Shown: positions 12,091-53,170 of the stretch, piece by piece
Layout of the letters: the number at the start of each line of letters is the position of its first letter
Position numbering within the stretch: the first letter of the stretch is position 1
Assembly: GCF_027587195.1 (NCBI RefSeq)
Contig: NZ_JAPDDP010000009.1
Coordinates: forward strand, 62,001-126,000
DNA: 64,000 nt
Direction of reading: 5' to 3'
Source: Solirubrobacter phytolaccae
GTDB lineage: Bacteria > Actinomycetota > Thermoleophilia > Solirubrobacterales > Solirubrobacteraceae
Notes under the pieces: generated by a model
Databases searched by the model: none
What the model was told of the DNA's origin: nothing
The model's input: the letters and a program-made list of their open reading frames with translations, nothing else
Program-made: the position numbers and the translations under genes

Positions 12091-13021
12091 ATGGCGGTCA
12101 TGGAACTGTGGCTGCACACCTTCGCCATCCCGCGCCGTGTCGTCACGGTCGCGCGCTGGGCCGAGCGCGTCGGGTTCATCGGGCTGCTCCTCGCCGACAG
12201 CCAGCACCTGACCGCGGACCTCTGGGTCGAGCTCGCGCTCGCGGGCGTGGCGACGACGCACCTGCGGCTCGGGCCGGGCGCGACCAACCCGCGCACCCGT
12301 CACCTGGCCGTCACCGCCTCGGCGGCGGCGACCCTGCAGGCCGAGACCGGCGGGCGCGCCGTGCTCGGGATCGCGCGCGGCGACTCCGCGCTGAGCCACG
12401 CCGGGCTCGAGCCGCCGACGGTGGCGGAGTTCGAGCGCGACCTGGTGGAGCTGCGGACGTTGCTGGGGGAGGGCGCGCTGCGCTGGGTCGCGGGACGCGA
12501 CGACCCGGTCGTGCCGGTGCACGTGGCCGCGACGGGGCCGCGCGTGATCGCCGCCGCCGCGCGGCACGCCGACGGCGTCGACTTGACCGTCGGCGCCGAG
12601 CCCGAGCGGCTGCGCGCGGCGGTCGAGCATGCCCGCGCCGTCAACCCCGACGTGTCGATCGGCGCCTACGTCAACGTCGGCGTGCACGAGGACGTCGCCC
12701 GGGCGCGTGATCTCGTGCGCGGCAGCACGGCCACGTTCGCGCGCTTCGGCGACCACGACGGCCAGCTCGCCGACCGCTACGACCGCACGCAGCACGGCTC
12801 GGCGGCGAGCACGCTCGCGCGCGGCCTGCCCGACGAGCTGATCGACCGCTTCGCGATCGTCGGCCCGCCCGAGGTCGTCGTCGAGCGCCTCGAGGCGGTC
12901 GCCGCCACCGGGGTCGAGCGCGTGATCGTCGTGCCGGGCTCGCTCGACGCCGATCCGTGGGCTCTCACGCTCGAACGAGCTGCTCGCGACCGAGGTGGTG
13001 ACACGAGTCGTACGCGCCTAG
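12091..13021 (+). pseudogene. LLM-class (F420-dependent) oxidoreductase, frameshifted near the C-terminus
   Basis: Residues 1-290 from ATG 12091 (or ATG 12100, MELWLHTFAIPRR) read as a bacterial luciferase-like TIM barrel: WAERVGFIGLLLADSQHLT, GRAVLGIARGDSALSHAG, VAATGPRVIAAAARHADGV and ERVIVVPGSLDAD. Such enzymes usually use F420H2 or FMN. After about nt 12955 the frame loses family character. The +1 frame instead gives GLSRSNELLATEVVTRVVRA followed by TAG at 13019-13021, the expected family C-terminus. One extra base around 12955-12962 (for example the T in CCGTGG) explains this. Without the correction the frame runs into the next gene and makes a false 667-aa fusion. It may be a real lesion or a sequencing error. 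The loss is only the last ~20 residues. Confidence 0.8.
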
Positions 13022-13050
13022 TTGACAGATCCGCCGACCCCGCATATAAA
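13022..13050 (+). promoter_or_regulatory. Consensus sigma-70-type promoter of the pentose/Sde182 operon
   Basis: TTGACA at 13022-13027 and TATAAA at 13045-13050, spaced by exactly 17 nt. The -35 box begins the base after the corrected stop codon of the LLM gene. The predicted start of transcription is near 13057, about 60 nt before the isomerase ATG. Confidence 0.8.
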
Positions 13051-13056
13051 TGCCGC

Positions 13057-13092
13057 GCTGCTGCATTCGGTACTGAATTTTTATGCAGCGGC
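13057..13092 (+). promoter_or_regulatory. Inverted repeat at the transcription start (candidate SorC operator)
   Basis: Arms GCTGCTGCAT (13057-13066) and ATGCAGCGGC (13083-13092) match at 9 of 10 positions around an AT-rich 16-nt centre. It lies directly downstream of the -10 box, where a repressor would block transcription. The SorC-family regulator encoded within the same operon is the natural candidate to bind it. It could alternatively form a leader hairpin. Confidence 0.5.
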
Positions 13093-13116
13093 ACCCGGCG
13101 AGGAGGAGAGAGAGCA

Positions 13117-14090
<974 letters not shown>

Positions 14091-14094
<4 letters not shown>

Positions 14095-14924
14095 GCCAAG
14101 TCCGGGTCCAGCCCACCGCGGACGCGATCCGCGCCGGTGCCCGTGCGATCCGCCGCCGCAACGTCGAGATCGTCAACGCGGCGGGCCTCGGCCACATCGG
14201 CGGAGACCTCTCGGCGGCCGACATCCTGGCCACGCTCTACCTCGGCGTGCTCAATGTCGATCCGGACCAGCCGGACGATCCCGAGCGCGACCGCTACATC
14301 CAGAGCAAGGGCCACGCGTCGGGCGTGCTGTACACGACGCTCGCCGCGGCGGGGTTCATCCCGGACAGCCTGCTGGACACCTACATGGCCGACGGCTCGC
14401 CGCTGAACGGCCACCCGGACCGCAACAAGGTGCCGGGGGTGGAGACCAACACGGGCCCGCTCGGGCACGGGCTGCCGGTCGCGGTGGGCACGGCGATCGC
14501 CGCCAAGCTGGACGCGAGCCCGCGGCGCACGTACGTGCTCTGCGGTGACGGCGAGCTGCAGGAGGGCTCGAACTGGGAGGCGATCATGGCCGCCGGGCAT
14601 CGCGGCCTGGACAACCTGGTGGCGATCATCGACCGCAACGGGCTCCAGCAGGGCGCGCGCACCGAGGCGACCAACGCGCTGGACCCGCTGGACGCGAAGT
14701 TCGCCGCCTTCGGGTGGGCGGTCAGGACCGTCGACGGCCACGACATCGACGAGCTGCTCGCGACCTTCCGGGCGGCGCCGTTCGAGCGCGGCCGGCCGAG
14801 CTGCGTGATCGCCCACACGCGCAAGGGCCGCGGCGTCTCGTTCATCGAGGACCGCGTCGAGTGGCACCACAAGGTCCCGTCGGCCGAGCAGACGGCGCAG
14901 GCGATCGAGGAGCTCTCAGAATGA
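14091..14924 (+). CDS. Transketolase, N-terminal (ThDP-binding) subunit
   Basis: 277 aa, start overlapping the upstream stop (ATGA). It matches the N-terminal half of transketolase: GHIGGDLSAADILATLY, SKGHASGVLYTTLA, GHPDRNKVPGVETNTG, PLGHGLPVAVGTAIA and the thiamine-diphosphate motif GDGELQEGSNWEA...N. The length is that of split transketolases, which work as an alpha/beta pair with the next gene. In housekeeping pathways transketolase is normally one polypeptide of about 660 aa. Split forms like this usually belong to specialised sugar catabolism, and here probably the apulose-4-phosphate transketolase large-chain equivalent (assignment inferred from operon context). A 67-nt gap follows before the partner subunit. 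Confidence 0.88.
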
Positions 14925-14991
14925 GGACCCTGAAGACCGTGCACGACACGGCCGGCGCCGTGGATCAGGGGCCCCGGGGCGGCGGCGCGAG

Positions 14992-15936
14992 ATGAGCGAG
15001 CGCTTCGACTGCCGTGACGCGTTCCAGCGCACGCTGATCGACCTCGCGACCCACGACGAGCGGATCGTCGCCGTCGTGAACGACAGCGTGGGCTCGTCCA
15101 AGCTGGGCGGCTTCGAGAAGGCCTTCCCGGACCGCCTGATCAACGTCGGGATCGCCGAGCAGAACATGGTCGGCGTCGGCGCCGGGCTCGCCAACGGCGG
15201 GCGGATCCCGTTCGTCTCGGGCGCGGCGCCGTTCCTCACCGGGCGCGCGCTGGAGCAGATCAAGGCCGACGTCGCCTACTCGAACGCGAACGTGAAGCTG
15301 TGCGGGCAGTCGCCGGGCATGGCCTACGGCGAGCTCGGCCCGACGCACCACTCGATCGAGGACCTCGCGTGGCTGCGGGCGATCGCGAACCTGCCGGTGA
15401 TCGTGCCGGCCGACCCGGTCGAGACCGAGGCCGTGATCCGCTGGGCGGCCGCCACCCAAGGCCCGATGTTCATCCGCATCGCGCGCTTCCCGGTCACGCA
15501 GCTGCACCGCGCCGACTACACGTTCCGGCTCGGCCGCGCGACCACGCTGCGTGAAGGCGCCGACGTCACGCTGATCGCCTGCGGCACGATGGTCGAGCGG
15601 GCGCTCGAGGCGGCGACGCTGCTCGCGACCCGCGGGATCGGCGCACGCGTGCTGAACATGCCGACCGTCCGCCCGATCGACCGCGAGGCCGTGATCGCGG
15701 CCGCGGAGCAGACGGGCGCGATCGTCACGATCGAGGAGCACACCGTGCACGGCGGACTCGGCGGCGCCGTTGCCGAGGTGGTCGCGACCGAGCGGCCGAC
15801 CCCGATGCGGCTGCTCGGCGTGCCCGGCGTGTTCGCGCCGACGGGCTCGGTCGAGGCCCTGTTCACGCGCTTCGGGCTGACCGCCGACGGCATCCTCGAC
15901 GCGGCGCTCGCGCTCGTGGGACGGGCGGCGGCATGA
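14992..15936 (+). CDS. Transketolase, C-terminal (pyrimidine-binding) subunit
   Basis: 314 aa. It matches the central pyrimidine-binding and C-terminal domains of transketolase and DXS: FPDRLINVGIAEQNMVGVGAGLANGG with the catalytic Glu of the GIAEQN motif, FVSGAAPFLTGRALEQI, MAYGELGPTHHSIEDLAWLRAI, then the C-terminal Rossmann-like part (VTLIACGTMVERALEAA, RVLNMPTVRPID, IVTIEEHTVHGGLGGAVAEV). With the preceding gene it makes one complete enzyme. The stop overlaps the kinase start as ATGA, which argues for translational coupling. Confidence 0.88.
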   Translation: MSERFDCRDAFQRTLIDLATHDERIVAVVNDSVGSSKLGGFEKAFPDRLINVGIAEQNMVGVGAGLANGGRIPFVSGAAPFLTGRALEQIKADVAYSNANVKLCGQSPGMAYGELGPTHHSIEDLAWLRAIANLPVIVPADPVETEAVIRWAAATQGPMFIRIARFPVTQLHRADYTFRLGRATTLREGADVTLIACGTMVERALEAATLLATRGIGARVLNMPTVRPIDREAVIAAAEQTGAIVTIEEHTVHGGLGGAVAEVVATERPTPMRLLGVPGVFAPTGSVEALFTRFGLTADGILDAALALVGRAAA

Positions 15937-17264
15937 CCGTGCTCGCGATCGACCAGGGCACCTCCAGCACGAAGGGCGTGCTGGTCGCCGACGACGGGAT
16001 CGTGCTCGCGCGCGCGAGTGCGCGCGTGAGCTGCTCGTTCCCGCATCCGGGCTGGGTCGAGCAGGACGCCGACGAGATCTGGGAGAGCGTGCAGGCCGTG
16101 ATCGCCGCGATGCCGCTCGGCACGCCGATCGACGCGATCGCGCTCTCCACCCAGCGCGAGTCGGCGGTCGTGTGGTCCGGCGACTTCGTCAGCCCCGTGA
16201 TCGGCTGGCAGGACGCGCGGACGGCACCCGACTGCGACCGCCTGCGCGAGCACGAGGCGTTCGTGCGCGCCCGCACCGGGCTCGCGCTGGACCCGATGTT
16301 CAGCGCGACCAAGCTGCACACGTTGCTCGACGGCCGCGACGACCGGCACGCGGGCACGATCGACGCGTTTCTCATCCATCGCCTGACGGGCGAGTTCGCG
16401 ATCGAGGCCGGCAACGCCTCGCGCACGCTGCTGATGAACCTGGAGACGCTCGACTGGGACCCCGAGCTGTGCGCGCTGTTCGGCGTGCCGCTCCACACGC
16501 TGCCGGAGATCCGACGCTCCGACGCGGGCTTCGGAGAGCACCGCGGCATCCCTCTCGCCGCGGTGCTCGCCGACAGCCACGCCGCGCTCTACGCGCACGG
16601 CGCCGCGAAGGCCACGTACGGGACGGGCAGCAGCGTGATGGTCCCGTCCGACGCGTCCGTCGACGGCCTCGCGCACACGCTCGCCTGGCTCACGGACAAG
16701 CCCGTGTACGCCGTCGAGGGCAACATCCTCGCCAGCGCGGCGGCGCTCGACTGGATGGCGCGCACGCTGCACGTGGACCGGCTCGAGCCGCTCGCGCTCG
16801 ACGCGACCACGACCGACGGCGTCCATCTCGTGCCGGCGTTCAGCGGCCTCGGCGCGCCGCACTGGGACCGCGGGGCGAGCGGCGTGATCGCGGGGCTCAC
16901 GCTCGGCACGCGGCCGAAGCACCTCGCGCGCGCGGCGTTCGAGTCGGTCGCGCATCAGATCTGCGACATCCTCGACCTGGTCGGACTTGAGGCGCTGCAC
17001 GCCGACGGCGGCGCGACCGCGAGCGCGCTGCTGATGCAGCTGCAGGCCGACCTGTCCGGCCGGCCGGTGCACGTGAGCGCCTCGCCCGAGATGTCCGCAC
17101 TGGGCGCCGCCGACCTCGCCGCCGGCGGGCGCCGCGAGCGTCCCGTCCGCACGTTCGAACCCGCCATCTCCGACGACGAGCGCCACACCCGGCGCGAGGC
17201 GTGGCACGCGGCCGTCCGCCGCTCGCGGATGGCGACCCCCGAGCTGGAAGCGAGCCTGCGATGA
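15933..17264 (+). CDS. FGGY-family carbohydrate kinase, candidate apulose kinase
   Basis: 443 aa, somewhat shorter than the 480-500 aa usual for xylulokinases. The N-terminal ATPase lobe shows AIDQGTSSTKGVLV (phosphate loop), HPGWVEQDADEIWES, ALSTQRESAVVW, VIGWQDART and NASRTLLMNLETLDWD. The C-terminal lobe shows YGTGSSVMVP, AFSGLGAPHWDRGASGVIAG and LHADGGATASALLMQLQADLSGRPV. This is the family that phosphorylates xylulose, ribulose, glycerol, erythritol and apulose. The neighbouring isomerase and split transketolase favour a ketopentose substrate, with apulose as first guess. It overlaps the next gene as ATGA. Confidence 0.85.
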   Translation: MTVLAIDQGTSSTKGVLVADDGIVLARASARVSCSFPHPGWVEQDADEIWESVQAVIAAMPLGTPIDAIALSTQRESAVVWSGDFVSPVIGWQDARTAPDCDRLREHEAFVRARTGLALDPMFSATKLHTLLDGRDDRHAGTIDAFLIHRLTGEFAIEAGNASRTLLMNLETLDWDPELCALFGVPLHTLPEIRRSDAGFGEHRGIPLAAVLADSHAALYAHGAAKATYGTGSSVMVPSDASVDGLAHTLAWLTDKPVYAVEGNILASAAALDWMARTLHVDRLEPLALDATTTDGVHLVPAFSGLGAPHWDRGASGVIAGLTLGTRPKHLARAAFESVAHQICDILDLVGLEALHADGGATASALLMQLQADLSGRPVHVSASPEMSALGAADLAAGGRRERPVRTFEPAISDDERHTRREAWHAAVRRSRMATPELEASLR

Positions 17265-18250
17265 CCCCGACCCCGCTGCTGCGGCTGATGACCAAGGTCG
17301 CGCGCCTGTACTACGAGCAGGGGCTGCGCCAGGCGGAGATCGCCGACCGGCTCGACCTCAGCCAGTCGCGTGTGAGCCGCCTGCTCAAGCAGGCCGAGAA
17401 GGAGGGCATCGTGCGGATCACGGTCGCGGTGCCGTCGGGCTTCCACGCCGAGCTCGAGGACCGCCTGCAGGTGCTCTACGGCCTGCGCGAGGCGGTCGTC
17501 GTCGACTGCGAGCACGACGACGACCAGGAGGCGCTGCGCGCGATCGGCGCCGCGGCGGCCGCGTACCTGGAGACGACGCTGACCGCCGGCGAGATCCTCG
17601 GCATCTCGAGCTGGAGCGAGACGCTGCTGGCGATGCTGGACAACATGCACCCCTCGGCCCAGCCCGGCGCCGAGGCCGTGGTGCAGATCCTCGGCGGCTC
17701 CGGCAACCCCGCCGCCGAGGGCCACGCGACGCGGCTCACCAGCCGGCTCGCGCAGCTCGTCGGCGGCGAGGCGCGCTTCCTGCCGGCGCCGGGCGTGGTC
17801 GGCTCGCGCGAGAGCCGCCGCGCGCTGCTCGACGACCCGTTCGTCGCGGCCGCGATGCGCTGGATGGAGGAGATCACGCTCGCCATCGTCGGCATCGGCG
17901 CGCTCACGCCGTCGAAGCTGCTCGCCGCGTCCGGCAACGTGTTCACGGCGCAGGAGCTGCACGAGCTGGAGGACATGGGCGCCGTCGGCGACATCTGTCT
18001 GCGCTTCTTCGACGCCGAAGGCGTACCGGTCGCTTCGTCACTGGACGAGCGCGTGATCGGGCTCGACCTCGAGCAGATCAAGCAGCCGCGGCGCACGCTT
18101 GCGCTGGCCGGCGGGCCGCGCAAGTTCGCCGCGATCCAGGGCGCGCTGCGCGGGCGTTTCGTCAACGTGCTGATCACGGACCGCTTCACCGCCGAGCGCC
18201 TCGCCGGCGACTGGAGCACGGTGCCGCATGACGACGAGGTGACGGCGTGA
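17261..18250 (+). CDS. SorC-family transcriptional regulator
   Basis: 329 aa from ATG 17261, overlapping the kinase stop. An N-terminal HTH (VARLYYEQGLRQAEIADRLD, then LSQSRVSRLLKQAEKEGIVRI) is joined to a sugar-phosphate-binding SorC/DeoR-C domain (GEILGISSWSETLLAML, VVQILGGSGNPAAEGHATRL, ITLAIVGIGAL, LALAGGPRKFAAIQGALRGRFVNVLITD). Members bind phosphorylated sugars and repress or activate their own catabolic operon. Being the fifth gene of the operon, it would be autoregulated, and the inverted repeat at 13057-13092 is the best candidate site. Confidence 0.88.
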   Translation: MTPTPLLRLMTKVARLYYEQGLRQAEIADRLDLSQSRVSRLLKQAEKEGIVRITVAVPSGFHAELEDRLQVLYGLREAVVVDCEHDDDQEALRAIGAAAAAYLETTLTAGEILGISSWSETLLAMLDNMHPSAQPGAEAVVQILGGSGNPAAEGHATRLTSRLAQLVGGEARFLPAPGVVGSRESRRALLDDPFVAAAMRWMEEITLAIVGIGALTPSKLLAASGNVFTAQELHELEDMGAVGDICLRFFDAEGVPVASSLDERVIGLDLEQIKQPRRTLALAGGPRKFAAIQGALRGRFVNVLITDRFTAERLAGDWSTVPHDDEVTA

Positions 18251-18873
18251 AGGTGCGCGCGATCGGCGCCGCCATCGCGGTGCTCGTGCTGGGCGCGATG
18301 CTGCTCGACGCGAGCTGGCGCTCTGACGACGAGCCGCTCGCGGCGACCAACGGCCGCGAGGCCTTCGATGCCGCCAAGTTCGGCAAGGACAACTTCGCCC
18401 CCAAGGTCGTGCCGGAGCTGGAGAAGCGCGCGGTCGAGCTGACCGAGCTGGTCCCCGCGCTGGAGCAGGACGCCGACGCGGCGGGCGAGCAGTACGGCGT
18501 GCGCCAGGGCAACAGCCCCTACAACTTCGCCGTCCGCGGCGAGGGCAAGGCGAAGCAGGTCGACGGCAACATCGTCGAGCTCGACGTCGAAGGCGTGCCG
18601 TCCGACGTCACCGTCGCGCTGCAGATCGGCCCCGCGATCAACGGCAGCGCGCTGCGTGACGCGAGCGGGCTGTTCGACTTCAACGACTTCCTCAACCAGG
18701 TGGACTACGCGGGCGCGGGCACGGCGCTCAACAACGAGGTCAAGACCACCGTGCTCGCCGACCTCGACCGCGAGGCGCTGGAAGGCAAGACGCTCACGTT
18801 CCTCGGCGCCTTCACGTACCTCGCGCCGACCGCGATCACGATCACGCCCGCGCAGCTCGAGGTGTCCTCGTGA
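18247..18873 (+). CDS. DUF2291-family membrane-anchored protein
   Basis: 208 aa from a GTG overlapping the upstream stop. One N-terminal membrane anchor (AIGAAIAVLVLGAMLL) is followed by an extracytoplasmic domain. Typical family features are FDAAKFGKDNFAPKVVPELE near the start and FDFNDFLNQVDYAGAGTALN in the middle. DUF2291 proteins are often encoded directly beside ribose-type sugar ABC transporters, as here, and are thought to be an accessory of uptake. The precise role is not known. Confidence 0.75.
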   Translation: MKVRAIGAAIAVLVLGAMLLDASWRSDDEPLAATNGREAFDAAKFGKDNFAPKVVPELEKRAVELTELVPALEQDADAAGEQYGVRQGNSPYNFAVRGEGKAKQVDGNIVELDVEGVPSDVTVALQIGPAINGSALRDASGLFDFNDFLNQVDYAGAGTALNNEVKTTVLADLDREALEGKTLTFLGAFTYLAPTAITITPAQLEVSS

Positions 18874-20374
18874 GCGCCGTGATGACCGCGCGCGGCGTGA
18901 CGAAGGTGTTCGGCGCCACGCACGCGCTCACGGGCGTCGACTTCGACGTCCAGCGCGGTCGCGTCACGGCGCTGTTCGGCGAGAACGGCGCCGGCAAGTC
19001 GACGCTGATGAAGATCCTCGCCGGCATCGAGCAGCCCACCACGGGTGAGCTCGAGCTCGACGGCGAGCCGGTGACGCTGCCCTCGCCGCGCGCGGCGGCC
19101 GATCGCGGCGTGGTGATCATCCACCAGGAGCTCTCGCTGTTCCCGAACATGAGCGTGGCGGACAACCTATTCATGGCGCGCGAGCGGGTGCGCAACGGCG
19201 TGATGGTCGACGACCGCGCCCAGCGCGAGACGGCGACCGCGCTGCTGGAGCGGCTCGAGGAGCCGATCGACCCCCGCACCGACGTGGGGGAGCTGCGGCT
19301 CGGGCAGCAGCAGATCGTCGAGATCGCGCGGGCGCTGGCGCAGGACGCGCGCGTGCTGATCATGGACGAGCCGACCTCCGCGCTGTCCGCCGCCGAGGTC
19401 GAGGTGCTGTTCCGGATCATGCGCGAGCTGACCGCGGACGGCGTCGCGATCGTCTACATCTCTCACCACCTCGAGGAGGCGTTGGAGATCGCGGACACGA
19501 TCGTCGTCCTGCGCGACGGCGGCCTGGTCGCGAGCGCCGAGGCTGCCGACGTCGACCTCGGCTGGATCGTCGAGCACATGGTCGGCCGCCGCCAGGACGA
19601 GCTGTTCCCCGACGAGCACGGCGAGCAGGGCGAAGTGCTCCTGCGTGTGCACGACCTCAGCGTCGCCGACCCGCGCAACCCCGGCCGGCTGTCCGTCGAC
19701 GGCGTGGATCTCACGGTGCGCGCGGGCGAGATCGTCGGCCTCTACGGGCTGATGGGCGCGGGCCGCACGGAGCTGCTCGAAGCGCTCGCGGGGCGGCTGC
19801 GCGCGGTCACCGGCGAGGTCGAGATCGACGGCGCGCTGATCGAGGGCCCGGTCGCGGCGCGGATCGCGCGCGGGCTCACGCTCGTGCCCGAGGACCGCCA
19901 GCGCGACGGGCTCGTCCAGTCGATGTCGGTCGGCCAGAACCTGTCGCTCGCGGGGCTGCGGCGCTTCATCCGCGGGCCGCTCGTCTCGGCCGATCGCGAG
20001 CGGGAGGCCGTCGCGAGCACGATGCGCGACGTCACCGTCAAGGCGTCCGGTCCGGACGCGCCGATCACGTCGCTCAGCGGCGGCAACCAGCAGAAGGTCG
20101 TGCTCGGCAAGGCGCTGCTCACGCAGCCGCGCGTGCTGCTGCTCGACGAGCCGACGCGCGGCATCGACGTCGGCGCCAAGGCCGACATCTTCACGCTCAT
20201 GACCGAGCTCGCGGGACGCGGGGTGGCGGTGCTGTTCGCCACCTCCGAGCTCGAGGAAGCGCTGCACGTGCCCGACCGCCTGCTGGTCATGGCGAAGGGC
20301 AAGGTCGTCCGCGAGCTTCGGAGAGGAGCCGCGAGCCGGGAGGAGATCATGGTCGCATCGGAAGGGGGCGCGCG

Positions 20375-20378
<4 letters not shown>
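18870..20378 (+). CDS. Ribose-type sugar ABC transporter ATP-binding protein
   Basis: 502 aa from GTG, typical length of the RbsA/XylG class with two fused ABC domains. The first domain has Walker A GENGAGKST, the signature LRLGQQQIVEIARALAQ and Walker B ARVLIMDEPTSAL. The second has the degenerate P-loop GLMGAGRTELLEALAG, signature LSGGNQQKVVLGKAL and Walker B RVLLLDEPTRGIDVG. It powers sugar import with the next two genes. Overlaps on both sides are 4 bp. Confidence 0.92.
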
Positions 20379-22493
<2,115 letters not shown>

Positions 22494-22501
22494 GGTTCGT
22501 C

Positions 22502-25060
22502 ATGAGGAGGAGAGGGCTTATCGGGGCGGCGGTCGCCGCCCTGGCGTTCGTGGTCGCCGCGCCCGCGGTGGCCGAAGCGGCGAAGCCGCGCACGATCCTC
22601 ACCACCGACGGTGAGGTCGACGACATCGACACGATGATCCGCTGGTTCCTGTACTCGAACGAGATGACCCCCGTCGGGCTCGTCTACAGCAGCTCGCAGT
22701 GGCACTGGAAGGGGGACGGCAAGGGGACGCTGTACACGTCGGAGACGCGCGGCGGCGCGCCGCGCACCGACCTGCGCTGGGTCCGGAGCCTGAAGTGCGA
22801 CGTGCCGACGGTGCCGTGCACGAACCCGAACCCGGGCGAGACCTGGATCCAGGAGCTGATCGACCTCTACGGGGAGAGCTACGACACCCTCAAGCAGCAC
22901 GATCCGAGCTATCCGACGCCGGCGCACCTGAAGAGCCTGGTGCGGATCGGCAACATCGAGTTCGAGGGCGAGATGGCGAAGGACACGGCCGGCTCGGACC
23001 TGATCAAGGACGTCCTGCTCGACGACGATCCGTCGCCGGTGTACCTGCAGATCTGGGGTGGCACGAACACGGTCGCGCGGGCGCTGAAGTCGATCGAGGA
23101 CCAGTACAAGGGCACGCCCCAGTGGGACGCGATCTACGCGAAGGTGTCCAAGAAGGCCGTGATCTACACGGTGCTCGACCAGGACGTCACCTACAACCGC
23201 TACGTGCTGCCGAACTGGCCGCAGATCCGCGTGATCTACAACGCCGACCAGTTCTGGAGCTTCGCCTACCAGTGGCGCTCGCGGGTGCCGGTGGAGCTGC
23301 GGCCGTACCTGCAGGGCCCGTGGCTGAACCAGAACATCTTCAACGGCCACGGCCCGCTGATGGCCAAGTACTACCGCTACGGCGACGGCAGGCAGCTCAA
23401 GGGCGACGAGTCCGATCACCGGCAGGGGCTCGACATGAACCCGGCGACGCTGGGCGACTTCATCTCCGAGGGCGACACGCCCGCGTACCTGCACCTGATG
23501 GACACCGGCCTGCGCAGCACCGACAACCCGACCTGGGGCGGCTGGGGCGGGCGCTTCACCCAGAGCCCGACCAACCCGTACCGCGTCGAGGACCTGCCGA
23601 ACACGCGGGACTTCAACCCGTACGCGGTGACCAACACGACCACGGTCCTGCCCGCCGCGGCGGGCGCGACGCAGCTGTACGTCGCCAGCATCAGCGCGAT
23701 CGGCGCCGGCCTGCCGGTGACGATCGGCGGCGTCACGCGCACGGTGGCGAGCGTGGGCACGGCGCAGGGCGCGAACACGACGCTGCTGGCTCCGGCCGCG
23801 GCGGGCGCGACGAACATCAAGGTGCCGTCGCTCAACGGGTTCGTCGTCGGCCAGAAGCTGCTGCTCAACACCGGCGCGGGCCAGGAGACGCCGACGATCA
23901 CCGAGGTCGGTACCGCCGGCACCGCGACGGCGCTGGCGGGAGCGCACACCGTGGGGGCGACGAACCTCAAGGTCGCCTCGGTCACCAACCTCGCAGTGGG
24001 TGACACGCTCACGGTCGACAACGCCGCCAACGCCGAGACCGTCACGATCACGTCCGTCGGCACGGCGGGCGCGACCGGCACGGGCGTCGGCGTCACACCC
24101 GCGCTCGCGCTCGCGCACGCCAACAACGCCGCGGTGCGCAACCAGAGCAAGCCGGGCACCGGCATCACGTTCACCCCGGCGCTGGCCGCGACGCACGCCA
24201 TGGCCACCGGCGTCCGCGGGGCGGGCTCGGGCGTCACGCTCGCGCAGCCGCTGACCGAGGCCCTGCCCACGGGCACGACGATCTCCAGCAACTGGAACAC
24301 GACCTACCCGCAGACGCGCTGGGTGGACGTGATCCAGAACGACTGGGCCGCGCGCGCGGACTGGATGGTCAAGTCCTACGAGGACGCCAACCATGCGCCG
24401 ACCGTCACCACGCCGCACCCGGACATGGTGTTCGCGCCGGGCCAGCGCGTCGCGCTCAGCGGCGGCGCGGTCGACCCCGACGGCGACGCCGTGACGTTCA
24501 AGTGGTGGCAGTACTACGAGGCCGACACCTACGCGGGCCGGGTCGCCATCGACGGTGCCGACACGCGCGAGGCGAGCTTCGTCGTGCCCGCCGACGCGAA
24601 GAAGGGCGACACGATCCACGCGATCCTCGAGGTCAAGGACGCGGGCACGCCCACGCTGACCAAGTACCAGCGCGTGGTGGTGACCGTCGGGGAGAACGTC
24701 CCCGGGACGGTCGGCGGCACGGTGCCGGCGACCCTGTCGCTGACGCTCGGCGCTCCGGCCTCGTTCGGCGCGTTCGTGCCGGGCACCGCCAAGGAGTACA
24801 CGGCGCCCACGGACGTGACCGTGACGAGCACGGCGGGGGACGCGGCGCTGAGCGTGAGCGACCCCGGCCACATGACCAACGGCGCGTTCTCGCTGCCCGA
24901 ACCGCTGCGGGTCGAGCTGGCCAAGTCCTCGTGGACCGGACCGGTCTCCAACGACAAGGTCGGCGTCACGTTCAAGCAGCTCATCAGGGCCAATGACGCG
25001 CTGCGCACCGGCAGCTACAGCAAGACGGTCACGTTCACCCTCGCGACGACGTCGCCATGA
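22502..25060 (+). CDS. Secreted Sde182/nucleoside-hydrolase-like protein 1, with inserted repeat block
   Basis: 852 aa. Signal peptide, then a DUF1593/Sde182 nucleoside-hydrolase-like domain from about residue 28: TILTTDGEVDDIDTMIRWFL (Asp-rich metal loop), LDDDPSPVYLQIWGGTNTVARAL, FWSFAYQW, DFISEGDTPAYLHLMDTGL and WGGWGGRF. Residues ~378-600 are an inserted block of Ala/Thr/Gly-rich repeats (GATQLYVASI, GATNIKVPSL, GATNLKVASV). The domain then resumes with RWVDVIQNDWAARADWM. A Sde182 C-terminal Ig-like domain follows (WWQYYEADTYAGR, GDTIHAILEVKDAGTP), and last the shared C-terminal domain (24710-25057). The namesake Sde182 is a cellulose-binding protein of a polysaccharide degrader. Glycan substrate and catalysis are unproven. 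It lies 8 nt after the transporter genes. Confidence 0.85.
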   Translation: MRRRGLIGAAVAALAFVVAAPAVAEAAKPRTILTTDGEVDDIDTMIRWFLYSNEMTPVGLVYSSSQWHWKGDGKGTLYTSETRGGAPRTDLRWVRSLKCDVPTVPCTNPNPGETWIQELIDLYGESYDTLKQHDPSYPTPAHLKSLVRIGNIEFEGEMAKDTAGSDLIKDVLLDDDPSPVYLQIWGGTNTVARALKSIEDQYKGTPQWDAIYAKVSKKAVIYTVLDQDVTYNRYVLPNWPQIRVIYNADQFWSFAYQWRSRVPVELRPYLQGPWLNQNIFNGHGPLMAKYYRYGDGRQLKGDESDHRQGLDMNPATLGDFISEGDTPAYLHLMDTGLRSTDNPTWGGWGGRFTQSPTNPYRVEDLPNTRDFNPYAVTNTTTVLPAAAGATQLYVASISAIGAGLPVTIGGVTRTVASVGTAQGANTTLLAPAAAGATNIKVPSLNGFVVGQKLLLNTGAGQETPTITEVGTAGTATALAGAHTVGATNLKVASVTNLAVGDTLTVDNAANAETVTITSVGTAGATGTGVGVTPALALAHANNAAVRNQSKPGTGITFTPALAATHAMATGVRGAGSGVTLAQPLTEALPTGTTISSNWNTTYPQTRWVDVIQNDWAARADWMVKSYEDANHAPTVTTPHPDMVFAPGQRVALSGGAVDPDGDAVTFKWWQYYEADTYAGRVAIDGADTREASFVVPADAKKGDTIHAILEVKDAGTPTLTKYQRVVVTVGENVPGTVGGTVPATLSLTLGAPASFGAFVPGTAKEYTAPTDVTVTSTAGDAALSVSDPGHMTNGAFSLPEPLRVELAKSSWTGPVSNDKVGVTFKQLIRANDALRTGSYSKTVTFTLATTSP

Positions 25061-26886
25061 GACGGCTGCTGTTCGCAGTGGTCGTCGTCGCCGCGCTGCT
25101 CTCGGGCAGCGCGGCGGCGCAGGCCGCCAAGCCGCGCGTGATCCTCACGCAGGACGGCGAGGTGGACGACATGGACTCGTTCATCCGCTACCTCTACTAC
25201 GCGAACGAGTTCGACACCGCGGGGATCATCTACACGTCCTCGACGTACCACTACGCGGGCAACGGAACCACCGTGCAGCCGTTCCGCTGGACGGGCACCG
25301 CGTGGCTGAACCAGTACCTGGACCGGTACGCGCAGATCCGGCCGAACCTCGTCAAGCACGCCGACGGCTACCCGACCGTCGAGCACCTGCGGTCGCTCTA
25401 CAAGCTCGGCAACATCACCGACGTCGGTGAGTCCGAGCAGGTCACCGAAGGGTCGGAGTGGATCAAGCAGGTGCTGCTCGACGACGACCCGCGTCCGCTG
25501 TACGTGCAGGCGTGGGGCGGCAACAACACCACCGCGCGGGCGCTGAAGTCGATCGAGGAGCAGTACAAGGGCACGCCCGCCTGGGACGGGGTCGTGGCCA
25601 AGATCAACCGCAAGGTCACGCTCTACAACATCCTCGACCAGGACCCGACGCTCAACGCGTACATCAAGCCGAGCTGGCCGGGCATCAAGATCATCGACAA
25701 CCAGCGGCAGTTCTGGTCGTTCGCGTACCTGTGGCCGTTCGTCACGCCGGTCCCGCACCAGGCCGTGCTGCGCGCGCCGTGGATGGAGGCCAACCTGCTC
25801 AACGGCAAGGGGCCGCTGATGGAGCAGTACCGGACCTACCGCGACGGCAAGCCGACGCCGGGCGACAACGAGAACAACCGCTGGCGGCCGGAGGAGTCGG
25901 AGGCGAACCAGAACGTCGGCTACGGCGTCCACGACTTCATCTCCGAGGGCGACTCGCCGGCCTACATGTTCCTGTTCGACTTCAACGGGCTGCGGTCGAG
26001 CGAGGACCCGACCTGGGGCGGCTGGGGCGGACGCTTCGCGCCGAACGCCACGGGCTGGATCGACGCCGAGGACGACTTCCCGTACACGGAGCCGGGCGGG
26101 CTGGGCACCTACCTGACGACCCGGCGCGCCTATCCGCTCACGCGCTGGTTCACCGACCTCCAGAACGACTTCGCCTCACGGGTCGCCTGGGGCGTCGCGG
26201 ACACCTACGCGGGCGCGAACCATCCGCCCGTCGTCTCGGCCCCGTTCTTGAACGCGGTCTACGCGCCGGGCCAGCGAGTGGCATTGAGCGGAACGGCGTC
26301 CGACCCCGACGGCAACGCGCTCACCTACCGGTGGTGGCAGTACCACGAGGCCGACACCTACGCGGGCAGGATCACGCTCGACGGGGCGGGCACGGCCAGC
26401 GCGTCGTTCGTCGTCCCGGCGGACGCCAAGAAGGGCGACACGATCCACGTGATCCTCGACGTCAAGGACGCGGGGACGCCGTCGATCAGCCGCTACGCGC
26501 GAGTCGTGATCACGGTCGGGGAGAACGTCCCTCACGTGGTCGGCGGCACGGTGCCGGCGACGCTCGCCCTGAACATCACGCCGGCCTCGTTCGGCGCGTT
26601 CATCCCGGGCGTCACGAAGGAGTACACGGCGCCCACCACGGCGACCGTGACCTCGACCGCCGGTGACGCGACGCTCAGCGTCTCCGACCTCGGCCACCTG
26701 ACCAACGGTGCGTTCGCTCTGCCGGAACCGCTGCGGGTGGAGCTCGGCAAGGCGTCTTGGACCGGCCCGACGTCCAACGAGCCGGTGCCGGTGACGTTCG
26801 AGCAGCTCGTCAAGTCCACCGACGCGCTGCGCACCGGCACGTACAGCAGGACCGTCACGTTCACCCTCTCCACGACGAGCCCATGA
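25057..26886 (+). CDS. Secreted Sde182/nucleoside-hydrolase-like protein 2
   Basis: 609 aa, ATGA overlap with the previous gene. Signal peptide MRRLLFAVVVVAALLSGSAAA, then the nucleoside-hydrolase-like domain (VILTQDGEVDDMDSFIRYLY, DDDPRPLYVQAWGGNNTTARAL, FISEGDSPAYMFLFDFNGL, WGGWGGRF). The Ig-like Sde182 C-domain (WWQYHEADTYAGR) and the shared C-terminal domain (26540-26883, ending TVTFTLSTTSP) follow. It lacks the repeat block found inside paralogue 1 and is the plain form of the family. The metal loop DGEVDDMDS is intact relative to paralogue 1. It is presumably exported with its neighbours to act on the same plant-derived glycan. Confidence 0.87.
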   Translation: MRRLLFAVVVVAALLSGSAAAQAAKPRVILTQDGEVDDMDSFIRYLYYANEFDTAGIIYTSSTYHYAGNGTTVQPFRWTGTAWLNQYLDRYAQIRPNLVKHADGYPTVEHLRSLYKLGNITDVGESEQVTEGSEWIKQVLLDDDPRPLYVQAWGGNNTTARALKSIEEQYKGTPAWDGVVAKINRKVTLYNILDQDPTLNAYIKPSWPGIKIIDNQRQFWSFAYLWPFVTPVPHQAVLRAPWMEANLLNGKGPLMEQYRTYRDGKPTPGDNENNRWRPEESEANQNVGYGVHDFISEGDSPAYMFLFDFNGLRSSEDPTWGGWGGRFAPNATGWIDAEDDFPYTEPGGLGTYLTTRRAYPLTRWFTDLQNDFASRVAWGVADTYAGANHPPVVSAPFLNAVYAPGQRVALSGTASDPDGNALTYRWWQYHEADTYAGRITLDGAGTASASFVVPADAKKGDTIHVILDVKDAGTPSISRYARVVITVGENVPHVVGGTVPATLALNITPASFGAFIPGVTKEYTAPTTATVTSTAGDATLSVSDLGHLTNGAFALPEPLRVELGKASWTGPTSNEPVPVTFEQLVKSTDALRTGTYSRTVTFTLSTTSP

Positions 26887-28796
26887 CCCGATTGATCGTG
26901 CTGTTCGCGCTGGCCGTGTTCGCGGTCATCGCCCCCGCCGCGGCGCAGGCGCAGACGCCCAAGCCGCGCGCCGTCCTCCTGCTCGACCCCGAGCTCGACG
27001 ACCAGAACACCCTCATCCGCTACCTGCTCTACGCCAACGAGCTCGACACGCAGGGGATCCTGTACCAGAGCTCCGGCGTCCACTGGGCCGGGGACGGCAA
27101 GGGCACGTTGTGGTCGGTGCCCGGCCGTGAGTACGCGAGCCGCAACCTGTGCCCGTGCACGTCGTGGCGCTGGAAGGAGGGCGAGCGCTTCATCGACGAG
27201 GCGGTCGACCTCTACGAGCAGGTCTATCCGAACCTGAAGGTGCACAACGCGGACTACCCGGCGCCGGCGGACCTGCGCTCGAAGATCTACAAGGGCAACA
27301 TCGAGTTCGACACCGACATCTCCAAGGACACGGCCGGCTCGAATCGGATCAAGGAGCTGCTGCTCGACGACAACCCGGCCCGGGTCTACCTGCTCACGGG
27401 CGCGGGGCACAGCTCGGTCGCCCGCGCGCTGAAGTCGATCAAGCAGCAGTACGAGGGCACGCCGCAGTGGCCGGCGATCTACGAGAAGGTCGTCCGCAAG
27501 GCGTACATCCAGTCCTGGGGCGACCAGGACAACACGTACGCGACCTACATCCGCCCGAACTGGCCGGACGTCTACTACCGCAACATGTCGGCGGGCGTGT
27601 GGGGCTACGGCGCGCGCAACGCGATCCTGCCGGCCGACCGCTCCCTGCTCGACCCGGCGTGGATGAAGGCGAACGTGTCCGACGTCGGCCCGTTCGGCAG
27701 CTTCTACCGCGTATGGGGCGACGGCAAGCAGATGGTCCCCGGCGACATCTTCGACTTCTTCGGCTTCAGCGGCCTGACGGCGGCGCAGCTGACCGAGATG
27801 GGCTACGCGGTCTGGACCGGCATCCAGGCGCCCGGCGCGTGGATCTCCGAAGGTGACACGCCGATCTTCATGAACCAGATCGACAACGGCCTGCGCGCCG
27901 GCGACGATCCCTCCTACGGCGGCTGGGCCGGTCGCAGCGCCCAGGACGTCAACCCGGCGACGGGCACGCCGAACAACAACTACGCGTCCGCGCGCTGGTT
28001 CCGCACCGCGCAGAACGACTTCGCGGCCCGCATGAAGTGGACGGTCACGCCGACGTTCGCGGGGGCCAACCACGAGCCGGTCGTGTCGGTCAACGGGCCG
28101 CTGAACGTCACGGCGGCGCCGGGCGAGACGGTCAAGCTCGAAGGCCTGGCGACCGACCCGGACGGGCACGCGCTGACGTTCAAGTGGTGGCAGTACACGG
28201 ACGCGGACACGTACCCGGGTGCCGTCGTGCTGAACGGCAGCGGGCGCAACGTGTCCTTCGAGGTGCCGGCCAACAGCGTCGTGCCAGTCAACGCCGTGCC
28301 CGGCCAGACGATCCACCTGATCCTCGAGGTCACCGACGACGGGACGCCGGCGATGACGAGCTACCAGCGCGTGGTCGTCACGGTCAGCGCCCGCACGACG
28401 CAGTACGCGGCGGCTTCGGTCGCGCCGGTGCTGTCCGTGTCGGTGGGCGCGGCGCCCAACTTCGGCGCGCTCGTCCCGGGCACGGCGAAGGTCTACACCG
28501 CGACCTCCACGGCGACGGTCACGTCGACCGCGGGTGAGGCGGTGCTGTCGATCCACGACATCAGCCCGCTCAGCCCGGGCAAGCTGGTGAACGGATCGCA
28601 CGCGTTGGCGTCGCCGATCAAGGTCAACGGTGGCACGTTGAGCGGTTCGCCGCTGACGGTGAAGACGTACCCCGGGCCGGCGACGTCCGACGTGACGACG
28701 CTCACGTTCGAGCAGCCGCTGGCGGCGACGGACACGCTGCGGACGGGCTCTTACTCCAAGAGCCTGACCTACACGCTGGCGACGACGACGCCGTAG
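26883..28796 (+). CDS. Secreted Sde182/nucleoside-hydrolase-like protein 3
   Basis: 637 aa from the ATG that overlaps the previous stop. Signal peptide MTRLIVLFALAVFAVIAPAA. In the metal loop the sequence is LLLDPELDDQNTLIRYLLYA: compared with its paralogues the TDG is LDP and the last Asp is Asn, so metal binding may be altered. Further marks are YLLTGAGHSSVARALKSIK, WISEGDTPIFMNQIDNGL and SYGGWAGRS. The Ig-like domain has WWQYTDADTYPG. The shared C-terminal domain here is the long variant (28405-28793), like that of the protein at the window's left edge. It is the last gene of the operon, followed by a strong hairpin. Confidence 0.86.
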   Translation: MTRLIVLFALAVFAVIAPAAAQAQTPKPRAVLLLDPELDDQNTLIRYLLYANELDTQGILYQSSGVHWAGDGKGTLWSVPGREYASRNLCPCTSWRWKEGERFIDEAVDLYEQVYPNLKVHNADYPAPADLRSKIYKGNIEFDTDISKDTAGSNRIKELLLDDNPARVYLLTGAGHSSVARALKSIKQQYEGTPQWPAIYEKVVRKAYIQSWGDQDNTYATYIRPNWPDVYYRNMSAGVWGYGARNAILPADRSLLDPAWMKANVSDVGPFGSFYRVWGDGKQMVPGDIFDFFGFSGLTAAQLTEMGYAVWTGIQAPGAWISEGDTPIFMNQIDNGLRAGDDPSYGGWAGRSAQDVNPATGTPNNNYASARWFRTAQNDFAARMKWTVTPTFAGANHEPVVSVNGPLNVTAAPGETVKLEGLATDPDGHALTFKWWQYTDADTYPGAVVLNGSGRNVSFEVPANSVVPVNAVPGQTIHLILEVTDDGTPAMTSYQRVVVTVSARTTQYAAASVAPVLSVSVGAAPNFGALVPGTAKVYTATSTATVTSTAGEAVLSIHDISPLSPGKLVNGSHALASPIKVNGGTLSGSPLTVKTYPGPATSDVTTLTFEQPLAATDTLRTGSYSKSLTYTLATTTP

Positions 28797-30774: not shown

Positions 30775-30838
30775 GCTGGCGTGGAGGAACGTCCACGCCG
30801 GTGTCTGGGCCGGTGTGGACGCACATCGAGAGGAGAAC

Positions 30839-33800
30839 ATGTTCAGGTCAGGCACCGCTGTGGGCCTGCTCGCGGCTGCGTTGGCGCTGGGTGCGCCGGC
30901 GACGGGCGCGGCCAAGAGCACACCCAAGATCAAGCTGCGCACCGTGGGCACGCCGCCCACGACCGCCGCGCCCGGCGCGTCGTTCACGCTCAAGGGCCAG
31001 CTGATCAACGCCGCGCGCACGACGCAGCGGCCGAAGCTGACGATCACGCTGCGGCGCACGAAGACGTCGAAGGCGATCAAGCTCACGACGAAGACGCTGG
31101 CGCGCGTGAAGGCCGGCAAGACGCTGCGCTTCAGCGCCACGGTCAAGGTCCCGGCGAGCCTTGCCAATGGCAGCTACTACGTCCGCACCTGCGTGTCCGG
31201 CGCCTGCAAGTACTCGACGAAGCGCCTGACGGTGCGCAAGCCCGCCGTCACCCCGGCGCCGACCCCGACGCCCACGCCCGTGACCCCCGGCGCGACCGCG
31301 ACGCCGACCCCGACCGCGACGCCCGGCCCGATCGAGCCCACGCTCGACTTCCCGGCGACGACGGGTGAGTTCGACGTGCTCGTCTTCCACAAGGGCGCCG
31401 ACACCACCGTGGCGACGATCCGCGAGCTCGGCAAGACCGAGAAGTTCGGCGTGGCCGTGACCGGCGACGCGACCGCGTTCAGCGAGGCGTACCTCAAGCG
31501 CTACCGCACGGTGGTCTTCGCGGGCGTCACCGGCGATGTGCTCAGCGATGCGCAGCAGAACGAGTTCGTGAGCTACTTCAAGGAGGGCGGCGGCTTCCTC
31601 GCCCTCGGCGACGCGATCGCCGCCGAGCCCGGCTGGGACTTCCTGACCGGCGTCCTCGGCGCCCGCGCGAAGGGCGCGCCCGCCGCGTCCGCGCCGGCCA
31701 CGATCAAGGTCGCCGACCGCGGCCACGTCGCCACCCGCACGCTCCCGCAGTCCTGGAAGGTCACCGACGCCTTCCCGAACTTCGACACGAACGTCCGCGG
31801 CGTCGCGCACGTGCTCGCGACCGTCGACGAGCACACCTACACGGGCGGCACGATGGGCTTCGACCACCCGATCGCCTGGTGCAAGAACTACCAGGGCGGG
31901 CGCTCGTTCTACTCCGGCCTGTCCTCGTTCACGACCAAGGACGCGCAGGAGCACCTCGCCGGCGCGATCGAGTGGACGGGCGGCGTCGCCGACCGCATCT
32001 ACAGCGACTGCGGCGCGACCGTCGTGGCCAACTACCAGCAGACCAAGATCTCGGCCCCGCCGAACCTGAACGAGCCGATCGGCTTCGACATCCTGCCGGA
32101 CGGCCGCGTGCTGCAGACCGCGCGCAACGGCCAGCTGCGCCTGCACGACCCGGTCAAGGGCGAGACGAAGGTCATCGCCACGCTCCCGGTCTACACGAAC
32201 TCCGAGGACGGCCTGTACGGCCCGGCGGTCGACAACGACTTCGCCACCAACCAGTGGGTCTACCTGTACTACGCGCCGCAGACCGTCAGCGTGAAGAAGT
32301 GCGACGGCACCACGGCCAACGTGACGACCGGCGCAGGCTCCGCGCCCGAGACGGCCGCCGACCCGTGCGTGTGGCAGGACCAGTGGAGCGGCTACTTCCA
32401 GCTCTCGCGCTTCAAGTTCGTCGACGGTGAGACCCCGTCGCTGGACCTGGGCTCGGAGCAGAAGATCCTCAAGGTCGACAACGACCGCGGCGCGTGCTGC
32501 CACGTCGGTGGCGACATCGACTTCGACAAGCATGGGAACCTGTGGCTCGTCACGGGTGACGACACCCCGTCGGGCGGCGGCAACTCGGGCGGCTTCGCGC
32601 CGTTCAACGACTCCAAGCTCGACGAGAAGCAGACGGTCACGGCGACCGCGCCGTTCACGCTGACCTTCGACGGCCAGACGACGACGCAGCTCACCGCCAC
32701 CGCGACGGCGGACCAGATCAAGGCCGCGCTCGAGGCGCTCGCGAACGTCGCGCCCGGCGACGTGATCGTCACCGGCTCCGCCGCGAGCGCGACCGTGCAG
32801 TTCGACGGCGCCTACGCGGAGCGCAGCGTGCCGGCGCTGACCGCGACCGGCGCCACGATCGCCACCACCCAGGAGGGTGGCTGGTTCAACGCGCCGTACG
32901 TCGACGCCCGCCGCACCGCCCAGAACACCAACGACCTGCGCGGCAAGGTGCTGCGCATCAAGGTCAAGGGCGACGGCTCCTACGAGATCCCGCAGGGCAA
33001 CCTGTTCCCGCTCATCAACGGCGAGCCGGTCGCCAAGACGCGCCCGGAGATCTACGCGATGGGCTTCCGCAACCCGTTCCGGATCCAGGTCGACGAGCAC
33101 GATGTCGCGTACGTGACGGACTACTCGCCCGACTCGGCGGTGCCGGAGAACTTCCGCGGCCCGGCGGGCACGGGGCGCGTGGAGATCGTGCGCAAGCCGT
33201 CCAACTACGGCTGGCCGCTGTGCGCCTCGCCGTCGCTCCCGTACTACCGCTGGAACTTCAACACGAGCAAGCCGCTCGACGCGACCCCGACGCAGCACGA
33301 CTGCGAAGACCCGACGAAGGGGCCGAAGAACGAGTCGCGCTGGAACACCGGCTTGGACCACGCGCCCGCGCTCACCGCGCCGGACATCTGGTACTCGTTC
33401 CGCGACAACGCGGAGCCCGCGCTCGGCACCCCGTGCCTGGCCTACTACGACGGCTCCGGCGGCACCTGCCCGCAGCTGTTCCCGGAGCTCGGCAACCGCG
33501 GCGGCGTCGCTCCGCACGGCGCGGTCAAGTACACGTTCGACCCGAGCAACCCGAGCGAGACGAAGTTCCCCGCGTACTACGACGACGCGGTCTTCCTCGG
33601 CGAGTTCGGCCAGGACGTCCTGCGCGAGGTCCGCCTCGACGACAAGGGCGGGATCTTCAAGATCAACGACATCCTGGACTGCGGCGACTTCTCCGCGGAC
33701 CGCACGTCGCTGCCGTTCGAGTGCGACGGCCCGATGGACATGCAGTTCGGGGCCGACGGCGCCTTCTACCTGCTGACCTACGGCGACGGCTTCTTCAGCC

Positions 33801-34897
33801 CGAACCCGGACGCCGGCATGTACAAGTTCGAGTACGTCGGCGGCAAGCGCAAGCCGCAGGCGCAGCTGAACACGAACGTCACCAACGGGCGCGCGCCGCT
33901 GAACGTGCAGTTCTCGTCCGACGGCTCGCGCGACCCCGACCCGGGCGACTCGATCAGCTACGCCTGGGACTTCGACAACAACGGCTCGGTCGACTCGATC
34001 GACCCGAACCCGAGCTTCATCTACACCGCCAACGGCGTCTACACGGCCAAGCTGACCGTGACCGACTCCAGCGGCAACATCGACATCAAGACCACGCAGA
34101 TCACGGTCGGCAACACGCAGCCGAAGATCACGATCACGACCCCGGCCGAAGGCGGCTTCTTCGACTGGGGCGACAAGATCCCGTTCACCGTCACGGTCGA
34201 GGACGCCGAGGACGGCCCGGGCGACTGCTCGAAGGTCGAAGTCACGTTCGTGCTGCTGCACGACGACCACGGCCACGGCGAGCAGAACCTGCTCGGCTGC
34301 TCGGGCACGCTGCAGACGGTCGCCGAGGACATCAACCACGGCGGGCATCTGGCCGGTGGCATCAGCGTCACCTACACCGACCAGGGCGCCAACGGGCAGC
34401 CCGCGCTCACCACGATCCAGCAGACCGTCGTCCAGGCGAAGAAGCACGAGGGCGAGCTCATGACCTCGCGCTCGGGCACCGCGTCCGGGACCTCGTTCCT
34501 CGGCGCGCCGTCCTACGCGTCCAGCCTGGACCCGGGCGACTGGGTCGCCGTCAACCGCAAGATCGATCTCCGGGGGATCTCCGGGATCACCGTCAACGTC
34601 GCGTCCTGCGGCGCGACGGTGGGGGCGCCGGGCGGCTCGCTCGAGCTGCGGCTCGACTCGCCGACCGGCCCGCTCCTGAAGGCCATCGACATCAAGGTCA
34701 CCGACAACGGCCCGTACTGCGCGTACGTGCCGGCGTTCACGACGGTGACCACACCCGTCACCGACCCCGGTGGCGCGCACACCCTGTACCTCGTCCCGAA
34801 GGCCGTGGACGGGGGACTCGCCAAGGACCTGTTCCTCGTCGACTCCATCCAGTTCGACGGGGACGGCATCGGCACTCTCAAGGAGGAAACGAAGTGA
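30839..34897 (+). CDS. Secreted ThuA / PQQ-type sugar dehydrogenase / PKD fusion protein
   Basis: 1352 aa from ATG 30839, behind GAGGAGAAC. Order: signal peptide; CARDB-like beta domain (~30-130); Thr/Pro linker (~133-165); ThuA domain (FDVLVFHKGADTTVATI, GGGFLALGDA, EHTYTGGTMGFDHPIAWCKNYQGGRSFYSGL); six-bladed glucose/sorbosone-dehydrogenase propeller (GFDILPDGRVLQTARNGQL, HVGGDIDFDKHGNLWLVTGDD, NTNDLRGKVLRIK, MGFRNPFRIQVDE, NYGWPLC). Then a PKD domain (AWDFDNNGSVDSIDPNPSF) and a C-terminal CBM-like domain. About 80 residues near 600-680 are an extra module set into the propeller. This protein does not carry the shared C-terminal domain. It probably oxidises sugars outside the cell. It is coupled to the next gene by a GTGA overlap. 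Confidence 0.87.
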   Translation: MFRSGTAVGLLAAALALGAPATGAAKSTPKIKLRTVGTPPTTAAPGASFTLKGQLINAARTTQRPKLTITLRRTKTSKAIKLTTKTLARVKAGKTLRFSATVKVPASLANGSYYVRTCVSGACKYSTKRLTVRKPAVTPAPTPTPTPVTPGATATPTPTATPGPIEPTLDFPATTGEFDVLVFHKGADTTVATIRELGKTEKFGVAVTGDATAFSEAYLKRYRTVVFAGVTGDVLSDAQQNEFVSYFKEGGGFLALGDAIAAEPGWDFLTGVLGARAKGAPAASAPATIKVADRGHVATRTLPQSWKVTDAFPNFDTNVRGVAHVLATVDEHTYTGGTMGFDHPIAWCKNYQGGRSFYSGLSSFTTKDAQEHLAGAIEWTGGVADRIYSDCGATVVANYQQTKISAPPNLNEPIGFDILPDGRVLQTARNGQLRLHDPVKGETKVIATLPVYTNSEDGLYGPAVDNDFATNQWVYLYYAPQTVSVKKCDGTTANVTTGAGSAPETAADPCVWQDQWSGYFQLSRFKFVDGETPSLDLGSEQKILKVDNDRGACCHVGGDIDFDKHGNLWLVTGDDTPSGGGNSGGFAPFNDSKLDEKQTVTATAPFTLTFDGQTTTQLTATATADQIKAALEALANVAPGDVIVTGSAASATVQFDGAYAERSVPALTATGATIATTQEGGWFNAPYVDARRTAQNTNDLRGKVLRIKVKGDGSYEIPQGNLFPLINGEPVAKTRPEIYAMGFRNPFRIQVDEHDVAYVTDYSPDSAVPENFRGPAGTGRVEIVRKPSNYGWPLCASPSLPYYRWNFNTSKPLDATPTQHDCEDPTKGPKNESRWNTGLDHAPALTAPDIWYSFRDNAEPALGTPCLAYYDGSGGTCPQLFPELGNRGGVAPHGAVKYTFDPSNPSETKFPAYYDDAVFLGEFGQDVLREVRLDDKGGIFKINDILDCGDFSADRTSLPFECDGPMDMQFGADGAFYLLTYGDGFFSPNPDAGMYKFEYVGGKRKPQAQLNTNVTNGRAPLNVQFSSDGSRDPDPGDSISYAWDFDNNGSVDSIDPNPSFIYTANGVYTAKLTVTDSSGNIDIKTTQITVGNTQPKITITTPAEGGFFDWGDKIPFTVTVEDAEDGPGDCSKVEVTFVLLHDDHGHGEQNLLGCSGTLQTVAEDINHGGHLAGGISVTYTDQGANGQPALTTIQQTVVQAKKHEGELMTSRSGTASGTSFLGAPSYASSLDPGDWVAVNRKIDLRGISGITVNVASCGATVGAPGGSLELRLDSPTGPLLKAIDIKVTDNGPYCAYVPAFTTVTTPVTDPGGAHTLYLVPKAVDGGLAKDLFLVDSIQFDGDGIGTLKEETK

Positions 34898-37959: not shown

Positions 37960-38065
37960 TGCCAGAACCAGACGCCCCGGGACCGAGTTCATTCCTTCGT
38001 AAGAGATGTTGTCCACACCGTGGGTACGTTCCGGGCGCTGCTCCACACGAACCAGGGGGGACGGG

Positions 38066-53122: not shown

Positions 53123-53170
53123 GGCGGTTCGCCGTACTAAAGGGTCTCGCAAGGGAAAGTGGGGAGAGGG

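Follow-up and report, generated by a model that had tools for sequence, protein, structure and literature searches.

One common C-terminal tag can be carried by many unrelated exported proteins, as with dockerin, the C-terminal domain (CTD) of type IX secretion and PEP-CTERM, and every known tag by which many unrelated proteins are directed to the surface has opened a secretion or anchoring system. WxL domains are defined by two W-x-L motifs, a C-terminal position and a gene cluster with DUF916 (PMC9772566), and AlphaFold predictions put a strand of their partner WxLIP (DUF916/DUF3324) into a gap of the WxL domain (PMC10599100); the Bacillus peptidase Vpr makes active fibrils by way of assembly domains (PMC10657474). 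The domain described here ends six otherwise different secreted proteins encoded in a 64,000-nucleotide stretch (the window) of the 7.74 Mb genome of Solirubrobacter phytolaccae, a member of the Thermoleophilia (contig 169, positions 62001-126000). It has no Pfam or NCBIfam entry, is previously undescribed and is nearly confined to Solirubrobacter. We propose, with slightly more doubt than confidence, that it is a C-terminal docking or retention domain used across the genus, an incomplete pilin-type sandwich completed by the strand of a partner.

A C-terminal domain carried by many exported proteins of Solirubrobacter

The original prediction, made from the window alone, had the domain extending in all six proteins to the last residue and built on the skeleton VPATLxLTL, FGAFxPG, YTA, STAGDA, LSVSD, xNG, FKQ, DxLRTGSY and KTVTFTLSTTxP. 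Translation of the six places bears this out: each copy is real and runs to the stop codon, the skeleton is found as quoted, and end-to-end alignment of the six gives 33 invariant columns. The genome search with an alignment-based profile that it had suggested shows the domain to be far more numerous. A tblastn search of the genome located 139 separate places, of which 137, including those of the window, were examined by profile search; the DNA examined encodes 139 domain proteins, two of them beyond the tblastn list, and with the two unexamined places the genome holds at least 141 copies. All 139 copies that were read show near-complete profile coverage and zero trailing residues, and these numbers and this strictly terminal position together exclude a chance origin. 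The domain is not covered by any model in Pfam or NCBIfam, and the literature searched contains nothing on it.

Six other Solirubrobacter genomes hold 106, 109, 68, 149, at least 150 and 106 copies. Elsewhere in the family the domain is absent from most genomes and occurs once or twice in a few; no copies were seen in other families of the order, in the rest of a 396-genome sample of the phylum or in the plasmids searched. The domain is terminal in 124 of the 126 matches from the other Solirubrobacter and the single-copy relatives. Both exceptions are partial matches at one locus (L024, 520-1302 and 1376-1669, + strand), which lack the C-terminal half, lie in reading frames with a different end and resemble decayed copies. 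On a protein tree the copies of our genome are interspersed among copies from other species, with 47 changes where shuffles give 75 and never fewer than 65; much of the expansion thus predates the species, and copies also cluster to some extent within each species. Two of the single-copy carriers outside the genus (L009 and L010, in genomes G023 and G014) have an HtaA-like, haem-binding domain N-terminal to the tag, with no membrane anchor following. Genome G025, from another genus of the family, encodes a stand-alone exported form consisting of signal peptide and domain only (L206, 1498-2031, - strand), a form that was not found in our own genome and is possibly close to the ancestral state.

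The two length classes that the window had suggested do exist, although across the 139 copies the spread is wide: 76 are of about 116-123 residues and 11 of 124-127, the rest reach up to 147, and one is of about 97. Length class changes 22 times on the protein tree against about 73 in shuffles, showing that it is inherited in clades and yet has switched repeatedly. Conservation is concentrated at the end of the domain, the last 20 columns having a mean of 3.67 bits against 2.87 for the remainder among 237 distinct copies. In all 237 the final residue is proline, and leucine at -6, tyrosine at -14 and glycine at -16 are likewise invariant. Only one copy has cysteines.

Removal of the domain leaves carrier sequences that fall into 53 or 65 unrelated groups, according to the linking rule, so that the variety of N-terminal partners noted in the window holds genome-wide. 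Partner types recognised by Pfam include peptidases of families M14, M1, M6, M64 and S15, rhamnosidases, ThuA, sugar dehydrogenases and amidases, with phosphodiesterases, xylosidase-type proteins, carbohydrate-binding modules and CBM6/PKD proteins as further types; most are hydrolases. A start resembling a signal peptide was recognised in 133 of the 139 carriers and in 98 of 240 neighbouring genes (41%), by a simple rule crude enough that the contrast between carriers and neighbours alone is usable. The strictly terminal position, the diversity of partners and the export signals strengthen surface attachment or sorting, the interpretation first offered for the six copies and still the best one: docking or retention at the surface in some form is probable. 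By our estimate, made from genome size, the domain takes roughly 2% of the genes, and such a tag would explain how a large set of hydrolases is held at the surface of these soil bacteria.

Covalent anchoring of the familiar kind finds no counterpart in these proteins. As had been noted for the window, LPXTG motifs and membrane anchors are lacking: only 2 of the 139 copies have a loosely LPxTG-like motif in the last 60 residues and 3 a stretch resembling a transmembrane segment, and the LPXTG, hydrophobic helix and basic tail of a sortase substrate are replaced in all 139 by an end within the domain. The domain might instead be a sorting signal, recognised like those of type IX secretion or PEP-CTERM by an export or surface-modification system of its own; the copy number, the genus restriction, the strict C-terminal site and the invariant last residue would all be typical of such a signal. 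The carriers have, however, ordinary signal peptides and no transmembrane helix followed by a basic tail. The predicted fold differs from those of dockerin and PEP-CTERM, and neither these, the type IX CTD nor any other C-terminal sorting family in Pfam or NCBIfam matches the domain in sequence (the machinery of the three named systems was not searched for); we regard a sorting signal of this kind as improbable.

Predicted fold and proposed completion by a partner strand

From an alignment of 103 copies the short form was modelled with AlphaFold, on the copy at 35905-36258 (mean pLDDT 94.7, pTM 0.82). The second model, of a different copy, represents the long form together with the OmpL47-type domain upstream of it (3-740, + strand) and has a pLDDT of 94-98 over the domain; the two models share most of the alignment and hence are not fully independent. 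In a Foldseek search with the first, chaperone-usher pilins headed the matches (CfaB, E=8e-4; Csu pilus, TMq 0.69-0.70). VIA-align matched the first model to CsuA/B (Z 8.1, rmsd 2.8 over 107) and the second to the pilin domain of CfaE (Z 9.0, rmsd 3.1 over 122) and to Csu 7zl4_A (Z 8.6, rmsd 2.8 over 117), and for both models most of its matches are pilin subunits and the pilin domains of adhesins, so that one fold family dominates. The fold prediction suggested at the outset has therefore led to chaperone-usher pilin domains, which the original prediction had not considered. The domain is predicted to be an incomplete immunoglobulin-like sandwich of this type, ending at strand F.

In both models the final strand runs almost to the C-terminus, at most a few residues short of it, and is the last element of the chain, and in the second the linker before the domain (residues 92-108, modelled with lower confidence) is not a strand; the open edge is thus not filled from within in either model. 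In solved pilins the same arrangement leaves the sandwich open to a strand from another chain, and the models suggest an open groove here as well. With the archaic Csu type (CsuA/B, SCPU, PF05229) and the two-domain adhesins (CfaE, PapG, FimH) the domain shares its predicted fold and strand order, a last strand that is also the C-terminus, and an ending of the form GtYxxTlTxTl; with the adhesins it also shares its place as a C-terminal domain behind a functional N-terminal one. The profile aligns end to end with that of ten CsuA/B-type (SCPU) pilins at a score of 24.8, where 30 column shuffles reached no more than 15.5. The domain differs from chaperone-usher pilins in several respects: Pfam gives it no significant match, a PapD-type chaperone is missing from the genus, no common N-terminal donor strand could be seen, the N-terminal partners are secreted enzymes and the host is an actinobacterium. 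Homology is not established with either the CsuA/B-type pilins or WxL, and the evidence from the predicted fold favours the pilins. A sequence search for relatives of solved structure gave chance matches only.

By analogy with pilins and with the predicted WxL case, we infer that the domain might work as follows. The carriers would be exported by way of an ordinary N-terminal signal peptide; the last 115-145 residues would adopt the incomplete immunoglobulin-like beta-sandwich, with the C-terminus of the protein as its last strand; a partner fixed at the surface, either a wall protein or a fibre, would donate a beta-strand to the open edge next to that last strand; and this would retain the enzyme non-covalently on the cell surface. 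The strictness of the C-terminal position would be explained if, as in pilins, the last strand has to end freely beside the receiving edge. A common donor strand at the N-termini of the carriers themselves is unlikely, since these parts are so widely unrelated. Judged by the profiles used, the putative partner is neither a PapD-type chaperone nor a TasA-type protein, and its gene does not lie next to the copies. Docking by strand acceptance is possible, if doubtful; that there is an actinobacterial display system in which 70-150 or more different exported proteins carry a pilin-like tag that accepts its missing strand from a single surface partner, with neither chaperone nor usher, is rather unlikely. 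If true, such display by strand complementation would be the pilin-type counterpart of the cellulosome's dockerin. The fold, the invariant tail and the near absence from sister genera offer a handle for finding the partner, and the domain could serve as a display tag.

Several observations weigh against completion by a partner's strand. Z values of 8-9 are at the upper edge for unrelated or common beta-sandwiches, and the hhalign probability for the match to SCPU is just 12%. AlphaFold gives a confident structure for the domain alone, which may be stable without a donated strand. As to the partner, the only gene families found repeatedly next to the copies are common ones such as ABC ATPases; PapD_N is found in 0 of 7 Solirubrobacter genomes with a positive E. 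coli control (ushers were not searched for), and TasA / camelysin (PF12389) in 0 of 7 with a positive B. subtilis control. PF05229 (SCPU) likewise matches none of the copies and gave nothing in the genome search, but its control gave no signal, so this absence is weak.

Structural matching also brought up an assembly-region domain of the Vpr fibril (8jmw, residues 594-687; Z 6.8, rmsd 2.6 over 92). This moderate match raises the possibility that the domain serves self-assembly, the carriers polymerising into extracellular fibres decorated with enzymes; like the domains of Vpr fibrils and TasA, it is, as predicted, a beta-sandwich of exported Gram-positive proteins, and those domains assemble outside the cell. 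Strand exchange would, however, need a donor within the same proteins, the N-terminal parts of which are unrelated and whose linker is not a strand. No TasA-type gene was found in the genus, unlike the Vpr/TasA case, nor is there evidence of assembly here; TasA-type fibres are rejected for lack of PF12389 in the seven genomes, and self-assembly as a whole appears very unlikely.

WxL domains and possible direct binding to the wall

The domain could also attach its carriers without any partner strand, by itself binding peptidoglycan or another wall polymer in the manner of WxL. Like WxL (PF13731) with its WxLIP, it always stands at the C-terminus of exported Gram-positive proteins (PMC9772566) and is predicted to be a beta-sandwich, and the two have a similar last strand and frequent terminal proline: its end, ...Y-xx-T-x-T-[FW]-x-L...P, resembles WxL ends, and 7 of 11 WxL proteins that we gathered also finish in proline. 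The absence of a co-located partner gene would suit a ubiquitous polymer as target. Against this, no copy of the 139 contains W-x-L and none matches Pfam WxL even at E<=10, and few of the invariant residues are charged or aromatic of the sort that would suggest a glycan site. Direct binding to a wall polymer thus seems unlikely.

The resemblance in layout to WxL on which the original prediction had remarked does not go beyond analogy. A C-terminal position on exported proteins is the sole defining feature of WxL that the domain shares. The profile scores 19.9 against ten WxL domains (shuffle maximum 17.1), with an hhalign probability of 2% (1-2% over all comparisons) and through the last strand alone; direct profile comparisons reduce to a local match of 14 columns there, and WxL homology was rejected. 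No WxL structure appears among the structural matches, and the two may still share a fold.

The WxL/WxLIP machinery was rejected as well: a WxLIP-like protein stands beside one copy, on contig C136, in one of seven members of the genus (PF06030 in 1 of 7 genomes), and there is no recurrent neighbour. At this locus (L001, G000:C136:94635-97985) a divergent small WxL-like protein (1483-2121, - strand), the one match to PF13731 in the genome and below the cut-off, is followed by the WxLIP-like membrane protein (429-1448, - strand); the pair is convergent with a carrier of the domain, and the WxLIP-like protein is absent from the other members of the genus searched.

Carriers in the window

All six copies in the window lie on the + strand. 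The first (297-740) is a long form, about 148 residues with its lead-in, in a carrier cut by the left edge of the window; it follows the OmpL47-type beta domain of the second model (NF047446, E=8e-23). Short forms end a small exported TIM-barrel-like protein (copy 35905-36258, gene 34894-36261), which has a weak iolE-type match (E=0.047), and a protein of 1640 residues with ThuA, sugar-dehydrogenase, PKD, CBM6, OmpL47 and HYR parts (copy 57725-58078, gene 53159-58081). No tag is present on the exported protein at 38063-40714 (+ strand), which combines Ig-like domains with a long linker of TPTPTS repeats and has a different end.

A ThuA-dehydrogenase paralogue (30815-34897, + strand) offers a natural comparison. 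It had been singled out as lacking the domain, and rightly so: it has no profile match and a different C-terminus (...FDGDGIGTLKEETK / ...GTLKEETK). That such paralogues manage without the domain counts against its being only a cap for folding or for protection from proteases, with no role in location, and a cap would also leave unexplained the genus restriction and the spread to so many unrelated partners. A terminal proline and a compact sandwich would indeed resist carboxypeptidases, and the models give the domain high confidence by itself; a cap nonetheless seems improbable.

The remaining three copies are on Sde182-type proteins: a short form on the first (copy 24704-25057, gene 22502-25060; Pfam Sde182_NH-like 2e-63, Sde0182_C 1e-25), another on the second (copy 26533-26883, gene 25057-26886) and a longer form on the third (copy 28392-28793, gene 26883-28796). 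The first protein has an insertion of about 200 residues (23633-24280) between its catalytic part and Sde0182_C, loosely repeated and rich in alanine, threonine and glycine, which its two sister proteins lack. Their genes are the last three of an unbroken run of 12 on the + strand (12091-28796; 11 gaps of -64 to 67 bp) that also encodes a sugar kinase (FGGY) and a sugar-type ABC importer with its ATPase, permease and binding protein. Three carriers at the end of a run with such an importer would fit enzymes held near it, and keeping the nucleoside-hydrolase-like Sde182 enzymes there would make sense, an arrangement that is suggestive only.
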